From: Anaerolineae bacterium
Lineage (GTDB): Bacteria; Chloroflexota; Anaerolineae; Aggregatilineales; Phototrophicaceae
NCBI GenBank assembly: GCA_022841825.1
Contig: JALHQT010000006.1
Location: 62,001-126,000, forward strand
DNA: 64,000 nt
Reading direction: 5' to 3'
Program-made: the position numbers and the translations under genes
Shown: positions 12,631 through 18,234 of the stretch, one piece after another
Position numbering within the stretch: position 1 is the stretch's first letter
How the letters are laid out: each line of letters starts with the position of its first letter
The notes under the pieces: model-generated
The model's database searches: none
What the model was told of the DNA's origin: nothing
Seen by the model: only the letters and a program-made list of their open reading frames with translations

Positions 12631-12695
12631 GTAGGGGCGATGCCGTGTCATCGCCCGCGAGTGACGATTCCTCGTTACTCACCACTCGTGACTTG
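12631..12695. repeat. Palindromic repeat followed by a GAGTGACG/CGTTACTC repeat
   Basis: GTAGGGGCGATG...CATCGCCC (12631-12658) is a copy of the main palindrome with 8-bp arms. It is followed directly by a diverged copy of the second family (GAGTGACGATTCCTCGTTACTC and CACTCGTGAC). The same two families adjoin again at 30880 and 63420. Confidence 0.65.
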
Positions 12696-16122: not shown

Positions 16123-16148
16123 GAGCAGGAATCCGAATGTGATCCGAA

Positions 16149-16214
16149 TAACGAGTGACGGGTAACGAGGACGCCTCGTGAAGTCGAATCTACACTCGTT
16201 ACTCGTCACTCGTT
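16149..16214. repeat. Inverted repeat of the AACGAGTGACG family
   Basis: AACGAGTGACGGGTAACGAG (16149-16168) and CTCGTTACTCGTCACTCGTT (16195-16214) are inverted copies with one mismatch in 20. It lies upstream of the RbsC-like gene. Related copies are at 12662, 17502, 30903 and 63420. Confidence 0.7.
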
Positions 16215-16286
16215 ACTGATCAAAAGATACCCCGCCCGCCTCAGAGGATGCAAAAAGCGCGCCGGGTGGACGCGCTTCCTGTCGTG

Positions 16287-16359
16287 AGGGGCTGCCGGGA
16301 TTCCAACCCGGGACACAGCGCTTAGGACGCGCTTGTTCTATGCACTGAACTACAGCCCC
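16287..16359 (-). tRNA. tRNA-Arg (anticodon CCT) with exchanged 19/56 tertiary bases
   Basis: On the minus strand a full cloverleaf reads: acceptor GGGGCTG/CAGCCCC, D stem GTTC/GAAC, anticodon stem AGCGC/GCGCT with loop GTCCTAA (anticodon CCT after T33), variable loop GTGTC, and T stem CCGGG/CCCGG. All stems pair perfectly and CCA is not encoded. The T loop is TTGGAAT instead of the near-universal TTCGAAT, and the D loop is AGTGCATA where bacterial tRNA-Arg(CCT) commonly has AGTGGATA. The two changes swap the conserved G19-C56 tertiary pair for C19-G56. The gene stands alone between the RbsC-like and epimerase genes. Confidence 0.9.
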
Positions 16360-16392: not shown

Positions 16393-17340
16393 TCAAGCCT
16401 GGGGCTGCGCATGATGCTGACGGAACCACGCGACCGTCTCGCGGATGGCGTCGGCGGTCGGGGTCGGCTTCATACCGAATGTGCGCTCGAAGCGGCTGCT
16501 ATCGACCACGAATGGCTTCTCGAACTCGTAAAGCATCTCAATGATTTCCTTCGCCGGTTTGTTGAACAGTCCCAGGACAGACAGGATGAAGCGTGTGCCC
16601 ACCTGTGCTTTCACTGGGTGACCCAGCTCTGCCTCGACCCGTTTCTTGATTTGGTTTTGTGTCGTCGGCGGCGCGGTGGGCACGATCCACGCCTGCCCAA
16701 GCGCCTCGTCGCGCGTGCCCAGGATCGCCAGCGCGCTGCCGAAATCGCGCACGTAGGTGAAGCTGTGCGGCATCTCCGGATTGCCGAGCAGGTTTGCTGG
16801 CTTGCCCGTCAGCGCGGGGATGTAGAGCTGTTCACCCTGAACCATATCGTAAGGTCCGAAGAAGTCGGATGCGCGCCCGGCGGTCACGCGCAGCTTCCCC
16901 GCGCGATGCGCCGCGAAAGCTGTTTCGGTCATCGCCTGCCGCACTTTGCCTTTGCGTGTATGCGCGTTGTACGGCATATCCTCCGTGATAGGCTTGCCGT
17001 CGGGGTCGCCGTACATATACAGGTTTTCGCACAGGATCAGATTCGCGCCTTCACCCGCCGCTGCCTCCAGAATGTTCGCCTGCAGCGGCGGGAATTTCTC
17101 GACCCATTCGTGATACTCCGGCTGCGCGCACTGGTAGACAGCGACTGCGCCGCGCACCGCCGCGCGCACACTCGCCAGATCGTAGGCGTCTGCTTTCACG
17201 ACTTCCACGCCGCTCGGCATGTCCGCCTTGCCGCTGCGGTTGACCATCCGCACCGACTTACCCAACTCGACCAGCTTACGCATCGTCCAGATGCCAACCG
17301 GTCCCGTTCCAAAGATCACATGCAGTTCGTGGGTATTCAT
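16393..17340 (-). CDS. NAD(P)-dependent epimerase/dehydratase-family protein
   Basis: A 315-residue extended-SDR/NAD-dependent epimerase-like protein. It opens with the Rossmann strand HVIFGTGPVGIWTMRKLVELG and VRMVNRSG; the glycine motif is GxGPVG rather than the classical GxxGxxG. ILCENLYMYGDPDGKPITED resembles the family's substrate/cofactor loop with its Tyr, and SFTYVRDFGSALAILG the 'V.D.A.A' segment. The start at 17340 has GGAG about ten bases upstream. A TetR gene lies upstream on the same strand and may control it. Substrate unknown; similar proteins act on nucleotide sugars or as quinone/flavin reductases. Confidence 0.75.
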   Translation of the reverse strand: MNTHELHVIFGTGPVGIWTMRKLVELGKSVRMVNRSGKADMPSGVEVVKADAYDLASVRAAVRGAVAVYQCAQPEYHEWVEKFPPLQANILEAAAGEGANLILCENLYMYGDPDGKPITEDMPYNAHTRKGKVRQAMTETAFAAHRAGKLRVTAGRASDFFGPYDMVQGEQLYIPALTGKPANLLGNPEMPHSFTYVRDFGSALAILGTRDEALGQAWIVPTAPPTTQNQIKKRVEAELGHPVKAQVGTRFILSVLGLFNKPAKEIIEMLYEFEKPFVVDSSRFERTFGMKPTPTADAIRETVAWFRQHHAQPQA

Positions 17341-17357
17341 GATCATTCTCCATTTGA

Positions 17358-17381
17358 GTAGGGGCATAGCGTGCCATGCCC
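17358..17381. repeat. GTAGGGG-family palindrome
   Basis: GTAGGGGCAT...ATGCCC with 6-bp arms (GGGCAT/ATGCCC), just upstream of the epimerase-family gene. Confidence 0.55.
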
Positions 17382-17501: not shown

Positions 17502-17530
17502 CTCGTTACCCGTCACTCGTCACACGTTAC
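17502..17530. repeat. CGTTACTCGTCAC-family repeat at the end of the TetR gene
   Basis: CTCGTTACCCGTCACTCGTC followed by ACACGTTAC is a copy of the second repeat family. The TAG stop of the TetR gene (17530-17532 on the plus strand) begins exactly at the repeat edge, suggesting the element inserted beside or reshaped the gene end. Confidence 0.5.
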
Positions 17531-18234
17531 TACGGCTCCCATCGCATCCCCATCGTCGTCAGGAGCTGGCGCAGCGTCGTGTGATAGAACGTTTCGACAT
17601 CGCCGACGTTGGGACCGATGTGATTGAATAGCTCCAGCATGATGATTCCGTGCATCTGTGACCAGCAGATCATCGCCAGGTGGTACGTTTCGACCGAGAT
17701 CGGGAAGCCACCCGTCGTCACCAACTGCTGCTCATGCGCACGGATGTGTTCCGGGATGCTGTTGAAAGGTAGCTGCGGCTGAAACGCGCTGCTCTCCACC
17801 GCCTGTGTCATGCAGCGCATGAGCGGCACGAACGTGCGCACGACTGCCGGGACGGTGATCTCGCTGGGCGCGACGTAACCGGGGATCGGATTTCCGTAGA
17901 TGAGTTGGAAATCCGTCGGATGTTCCAGCGCCCAGCGCCGATAGGCACTCGCCACCTGGATCAACTGCTCTTCCGGCGGGAGCACACGCGCCTTGTATTC
18001 CGCCCGCTCCAGTGCATCAGCCAAGGCGTTGAAGGCGTCCACGATCAGCGCGGTGATCAGGTCGTCGCGTGTCGGATAGTAACGATAAAGCGCGGGCGCG
18101 CTCAACTCCATGTCTCGGGCGATGGCGCGCAGCGAAATACCGGCGGTGCCTTCGGTCGCCATTTGTTTTCGCGCCAGCAGCTTGATCGTCGCCTGCGTCT
18201 CCTCATAGACTGTTTCGTCGCGTGTGCGAGGCAT
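17530..18234 (-). CDS. TetR-family transcriptional regulator
   Basis: A 234-residue TetR protein. Residues ~12-62 form the N-terminal DNA-binding domain: ATIKLLARKQMATEGTAGIS, LRAIARDMELSAPALYRYYPTRDDLITALI, with the recognition helix SAPALYRYY. The C-terminal ligand domain carries a WALEHPTDFQLIYGNPIPGY segment typical of one broad TetR subfamily (TetR_C_33-like). It lies between the polyamine importer and an epimerase-family gene, all on the same strand, and has its own promoter overlapped by a perfect inverted repeat, so autorepression is likely. The ligand is unknown. Confidence 0.88.
   Translation of the reverse strand: MPRTRDETVYEETQATIKLLARKQMATEGTAGISLRAIARDMELSAPALYRYYPTRDDLITALIVDAFNALADALERAEYKARVLPPEEQLIQVASAYRRWALEHPTDFQLIYGNPIPGYVAPSEITVPAVVRTFVPLMRCMTQAVESSAFQPQLPFNSIPEHIRAHEQQLVTTGGFPISVETYHLAMICWSQMHGIIMLELFNHIGPNVGDVETFYHTTLRQLLTTMGMRWEP

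Follow-up and report, generated by a model that had tools for sequence, protein, structure and literature searches.

Structure of the tRNA-Arg(CCT) gene and its locus

The minus strand of the window, the whole 64,000-nucleotide stretch of DNA that was analysed, carries a tRNA-Arg(CCT) gene of 73 nucleotides at positions 16287..16359, with the discriminator base U73 and no encoded CCA. The gene was recognized by ARAGORN, which called it on the minus strand at 16286-16359, by RNA folding, and by the Rfam family RF00005, whose match (16359-16287; 55.3 bits against a gathering cut-off of 29 bits, E 3.5e-09) covered model positions 1-71 of 71. RF00005 aside, no Rfam family reached its gathering score in the window. 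The anticodon CCT, which reads AGG, was placed by ARAGORN at 16324..16326. The transcribed strand folds into a cloverleaf (-33.9 kcal/mol, z -3.26) in which the four stems are intact and all 21 stem pairs are Watson-Crick, in agreement with the preliminary description of this DNA, which had reported a complete cloverleaf free of stem mismatches. The exact tRNA motif occurs once in the window and in none of 100 shuffled versions of it.

The D loop of this tRNA is AGTGCATA and the T loop is TTGGAAT (16306-16300). In place of the near-invariant G19-C56 pair, the gene has C19 at 16342, as determined from the sequence, the cmscan alignment and the position table, and G56 at 16304, as determined from the sequence and the position table, both on the minus strand. 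The elbow pair is thus retained as a Watson-Crick pair in reversed form, as the preliminary description had proposed. The flanking G18 (16343) and A20 (16341) are unchanged, as is U55. Two further features, G at position 32 and the discriminator U73, had escaped that description. The G19-C56 pair is a consensus feature of tRNAs rather than a condition for tRNA status, since other accepted tRNAs lack G18G19/TpsiC, according to the available portion of PMC7609411.

A coincidence of two separate sequencing errors, one at 19 and one at 56, that left the bases paired is unlikely. An origin of the swap in a loss of the pseudouridine-55 enzyme was rejected, given the presence of the TruB family in all four genomes searched, including that of the window. 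The genome yielded 45 RF00005 matches, among which ARAGORN assigned one CCT anticodon and, for the other arginine tRNAs, the anticodons ACG, CCG, TCG and TCT. A normal CCT copy elsewhere in the genome had been raised as a possibility at the outset; among the 45 matches of this 95.67%-complete assembly, the swapped gene alone has a CCT anticodon.

The tRNA gene lies among ordinary chromosomal genes. Directly upstream, on the same strand, is an NAD-dependent epimerase/NmrA-like gene (16393..17367; Pfam PF01370, PF05368), followed farther upstream by a gene for a TetR-type regulator (17530..18234, minus strand; Pfam PF00440, PF13305), and these two genes served as syntenic anchors; a permease gene and a carbohydrate kinase gene lie downstream. 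Just 3' of the tRNA, RNA folding identified a hairpin running into a U run (16248..16282, minus strand; -19.6 kcal/mol, z -4.46, with none of 200 shuffles as good), which is a probable intrinsic terminator. This hairpin was absent from the list produced by the consensus scan, which also gave no promoter.

The interval that separates the permease gene from the tRNA gene holds, at 16145-16215, an inverted repeat of the motif ACTCGTTACTCGTCACTCG with 21-nucleotide arms. The motif also occurs at 12670, 17501 and 63423; it has six matches in the window with up to three mismatches, compared with none in 100 shuffles, and is perhaps a dispersed repeat.

Divergence among relatives and decoding of AGG

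The genomes of 98 family members were surveyed with an Arg(CCT) pattern in which positions 19 and 56 were left free. Matches were obtained in 75 genomes (10 of the 15 in the genus), and 23 genomes gave none. Only the window's genome had C19/G56; G19 and C56 were kept in the other 74 matched genomes. In two relatives from the genus, G013 and G002, the TetR-type regulator, the epimerase and tRNA-Arg(CCT) occur in the same order and orientation, and this conserved gene order ruled out a phage insertion at the tRNA locus. Because the same-locus tRNAs of both relatives have G19/C56, the swap is, on this comparison of sequences, taken as derived in place in the window's genome. A class-wide survey of tRNAs with TAGYTCA and T54 T55 found a base other than C56 in 2 of 249 genomes, namely the window's genome and one with a G19/U56 tRNA of anticodon CAC (read as Val).

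The gene has diverged rapidly. DNA searches at E 0.001 gave no match to the tRNA in the 14 other members of the genus, and gave matches in 7 of the remaining 46 relatives, not always to an Arg tRNA. The window's genome and G013 have 42 tRNA types in common, and Arg(CCT) shows the greatest divergence among them, at 68% identity, compared with 77% for the next and a median of 91%. Relative to one of the same-locus tRNAs, 12 of the 21 stem pairs have changed, 10 of them on both sides. When 22 stem changes were placed randomly in simulations, 15 pairs at most were kept, and in none of 300,000 trials were all pairs kept. Outside the stems, differences are confined to positions 16, 19, 32, 47, 56, 59 and 73, and the core bases at positions 8, 9, 14, 15, 18, 20, 20a, 21, 26, 33-38, 44-46, 48, 54, 55, 57, 58 and 60 are unchanged.

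The survival of Watson-Crick pairing in every stem, after changes in 12 stem pairs of which 10 are changed on both sides, indicates a tRNA-Arg(CCT) that is probably maintained and not a pseudogene. The preliminary description had taken the double change at 19 and 56 as an argument for function and selection. The gene does look maintained, but the lone double change is poor evidence of this, as a pair results from 3 of the 9 double changes that are possible; support for function comes instead from the compensated stems, together with the covariation of 19-56 in other tRNAs described below. The same chance of pairing, the odd U73, and the possibility that tRNA-Arg(TCT) alone might read AGG would agree with chance pairing of the elbow bases, either in a pseudogene undergoing decay or through an error of assembly. 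This explanation is nevertheless hardly credible in view of the intact stems, the outcome of the simulations, an Rfam score well over the cut-off, and the downstream hairpin with its U run.

The tRNA retains the arginine features CCU (anticodon), A20 and C35, and departs at U73 from the discriminator A/G73 that belongs to the bacterial arginine identity set in the accessible text of PMC9976931. None of the 34 CCT tRNAs listed from the same family or order has U73, compared with 5 of 10 viral tRNA-Arg genes with C19-G56. As a separate observation, this tRNA with an arginine anticodon resembles tRNA-Gly, with 82% identity to a tRNA-Gly(TCC) from another family of the order.

In order to examine how AGG is read, 176 gene models were compared with aligned segments of the G002 and G013 genomes, after removal of reading frames that overlapped others or were interrupted by stops in the relative. 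AGG proved to be rare, with 108 occurrences among the 63,907 codons aligned (1.69 per 1000). At these 108 sites the relative's residue was Arg in 34 cases, Lys in 17, Gln in 11 and Gly in 5; by comparison, Arg was kept at 66-78% of CGN codons. Because Arg occupies 34 of the 108 sites in the relative, these alignments indicate that AGG is read as arginine, at sites that are weakly conserved. Rare, weakly conserved AGG sites fit a low demand on tRNA-Arg(CCT). Reassignment of AGG to glycine, hinted at by U73 and the likeness to tRNA-Gly, was ruled out by the presence of Gly at only 5 of the 108 sites.

Altered elbow pairs in other bacteria and in viral contigs

A scan of 84,980 species genomes, limited to the D-loop shape of the window's tRNA, identified 10 further loci with C19/G56, all of them tRNA-Arg genes, in four Acidobacteriota records (one of Holophagaceae), five cyanobacterial records and Flagellimonas pelagia. 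The swap is therefore not unique to the window's tRNA. Nine of these loci are arrays of 3 to 23 tRNA genes, and the tRNA of F. pelagia is a lone gene amid ordinary chromosomal genes. Four C19-G56 tRNAs in cyanobacterial arrays were called tRNA-Pyl(CTA) by ARAGORN and are read here as tRNA-Arg(TCT), the former being likely a misnaming. In viral contigs, the same D-loop shape gave 10 C19-G56 loci, again all tRNA-Arg; nine of them hold three or more tRNAs, and the C19-G56 tRNA encodes CCA in all ten. Searches of the open-access literature turned up no account of bacterial or phage tRNAs that naturally have C19-G56 or A19-U56. In one cryo-EM paper the elbow pair of an A-site tRNA is given as C19-G56, possibly as a slip.

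A rival explanation is that a different tRNA gene, either a tRNA-Gly or one from a phage or mobile array, settings in which swapped elbows are common, took the place of the original tRNA and brought the swap with it. Such a replacement would account for the identity of only 66-67% with same-locus relatives over 73 positions, for a V loop of 5 instead of 4 nucleotides, and for the resemblance to tRNA-Gly, which includes U73; U73 is also shared with half of the viral C19-G56 tRNAs, and arrays of at least three tRNAs predominate among the bacterial and viral loci alike. Replacement of the whole gene is nonetheless unlikely given that locus and orientation are conserved in G013 and G002, that the gene is single and without the CCA encoded by its viral counterparts, that the best viral match reaches only 79.5%, that the D loop and A20 are Arg-like, and that Arg(CCT) in a sister genus also has the 5-nucleotide V loop and G32. 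Since the closest tRNA among those compared, by identity over the whole tRNA, is the tRNA-Gly(TCC), replacement rather than drift may account for part of the gene.

A second natural case was found in the Flavobacteriaceae. F. pelagia has 44 tRNA matches, including two Arg(ACG) genes, one with C19-G56 and the other with A19-U56, and no normal G19-C56 ACG copy is among them. When 60 Flavobacteriaceae genomes were searched at the DNA level with the A19-U56 gene, all but one of them (59) contained a match. All of the 30 closest loci (27 ACG and 3 TCG, the query's own locus included) have A19-U56; these loci were picked by similarity to an A19-U56 query and are no measure of how common the pair is.

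Three scans of viral contigs, covering every non-G-C combination at 19/56 within one D-loop shape, gave at least 178 matches, of which 173 passed stem checks; the five left out for poor stems had A-U (3), C-C (1) and G-U (1). Double changes among the matches listed were A-U 95, U-A 12, C-G 9, A-A 2 and U-G 1 (19-56), that is, 116 of 119 were Watson-Crick where one third would be expected, in rows that are related and not independent. Single changes among the matches listed were H19/C56 (39), G19/U56 (14) and G19/A56 (1), and in 29 of the 34 unique H19/C56 rows listed the following D-loop position is G, readable as a G19 that is kept.

The other tRNAs of the 178 listed viral loci (1040 unique, being related sequences and not independent events) showed the same correspondence. 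GG was present in 859 of 887 tRNAs with TTC and GA in 26 of 28 with TTT; GC was present in 6 of the 8 tRNAs with TTG, and all 8 tRNAs with TTA had GT. Because the loci were chosen for an altered tRNA, the frequencies of altered elbows are inflated, whereas the pairing itself was unselected in these rows; the 28 of 887 TTC tRNAs without GG in the allowed places imply that mismatches or other registers exist. These patterns suggest that in nature the pairing of 19-56 tends to be kept and the particular letters are not. Cellular tRNAs may follow other rules of change at 19-56 than viral ones do.

The neighbouring elbow contact, 18-55, is also altered in the window's genome. Its only tRNA-Phe(GAA), called by ARAGORN on the minus strand of contig C10 (135347-135418), has the D loop AGCAGTA and the T loop TGCGAAT, and thus A18 and G55 for G18 and U55; no other altered elbow, that of tRNA-Arg(CCT) aside, was found among the genome's 45 tRNAs. 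Of the 83 family genomes matched (of 98), three have this A18/G55 tRNA-Phe, namely the window's genome, G002 and G013. In the listed viral loci, AG replaced GG in 25 of 27 TGC tRNAs, compared with 6 of 887 TTC tRNAs.

Interpretation and comparison with other tRNAs

Taken from the sequence comparisons, a reading that we hold as probable is that the gene is authentic, that it is maintained as a functional, little-used tRNA-Arg(CCT) isoacceptor descended at this locus from a G19-C56 ancestor, and that it is weakly constrained and drifts under a pairing constraint, with the geometry of the elbow pair mattering and the identity of its bases not. The weak constraint and fast drift would follow from AGG being rare and probably also readable by tRNA-Arg(TCT) through wobble, with drift confined to changes under which all stem and tertiary pairs survive. 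The sequence, the single copy, the shared locus, the compensated stems and the covariation in other tRNAs are observed; that the tRNA is expressed and arginylated, that the TCT tRNA reads AGG by wobble, and that selection has been relaxed as the cause of the change, we infer.

RNase P and T-box RNAs are among the partners that use the flat face of the G19-C56 pair. This face at the elbow is contacted by the ribosome and by other RNAs and proteins that recognize tRNA, according to the available text of PMC4810234. C19-G56 could replace G19-C56 because the pair would act as a Watson-Crick platform, with the ribosome, RNase P and synthetases stacking on its flat face or needing its geometry. In human and bovine mitochondrial tRNA-Ser(UGA), as described in the part of PMC10412605 that is accessible, breaking G19:C56 abolished charging, and A19:U56 or C19:G56 restored it. 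The same reversed pair was thus functional there, in engineered mitochondrial mutants and with one synthetase, whereas the tRNA in the window is natural and bacterial.

The preliminary description suggested that the swap may change how the tRNA is recognized by enzymes that read G18G19/C56; G18 and U55 are unchanged, and the TruB family is present in the genome. It was also considered that the swap is adaptive, concealing the tRNA from an enzyme, either a nuclease or one that modifies tRNA, for which G18G19/C56 is the recognition feature. Phage-like and array tRNAs are where swapped elbows are concentrated, and phage tRNAs have been proposed to evade tRNA-cutting defences, by way of changes in the anticodon loop (PMC10264068, as far as its text is available); however, the available main text of that paper makes no mention of the T loop, the D loop or the elbow, only tRNA-Phe among the genome's other tRNAs is altered at the elbow, and an attacker that reads the elbow is hypothetical. 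We regard the adaptive explanation as very unlikely. A broader proposal, which seems doubtful, is that 19-56 (in all four Watson-Crick pairs) and 18-55 (as A18/G55) form a covarying code that has been rewritten in phages with large tRNA sets, in Flavobacteriaceae and in this genus, selected in phages to hide tRNAs from elbow-reading enzymes, and that the window's tRNA is a cellular instance of it.

In comparison with known systems, the maintained tRNA-Arg(CCT) shares with the canonical bacterial tRNA-Arg(CCU) the cloverleaf, the anticodon, A20, C35, U36, G18-U55, and the 15-48 and 54-58 partners, and differs from it in C19-G56 and U73. The tRNA-Arg(ACG) of Flavobacteriaceae likewise occurs naturally on the chromosome and has at 19-56 a Watson-Crick pair other than G-C, which is A19-U56 and found in many genomes of the family, whereas C19-G56 in the window's tRNA is found in one species. 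Phage-like and array tRNAs also share compensated 19-56 changes with the window's tRNA, but the phage-like ones lie mostly in arrays, encode CCA in the viral C19-G56 cases, and in some instances also alter 18-55. The tRNA-Pyl and type II mitochondrial tRNAs, in the accessible part of PMC7609411, similarly depart from the elbow consensus; they lose or rebuild the contact between the loops, whereas the window's tRNA keeps it.

Natural tRNAs with a reversed or replaced 19-56 pair, including one whose chromosomal locus is conserved, offer a direct test of whether the machines that handle tRNA need the letters or only the pair. They also show that genuine tRNAs can be overlooked or given a wrong name when a search insists on GG and TTC. 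As a minor observation, two viral contigs were rich in altered elbows, with 11 of 11 and 9 of 13 tRNAs in the pieces examined flagged as lacking GG or TTC.
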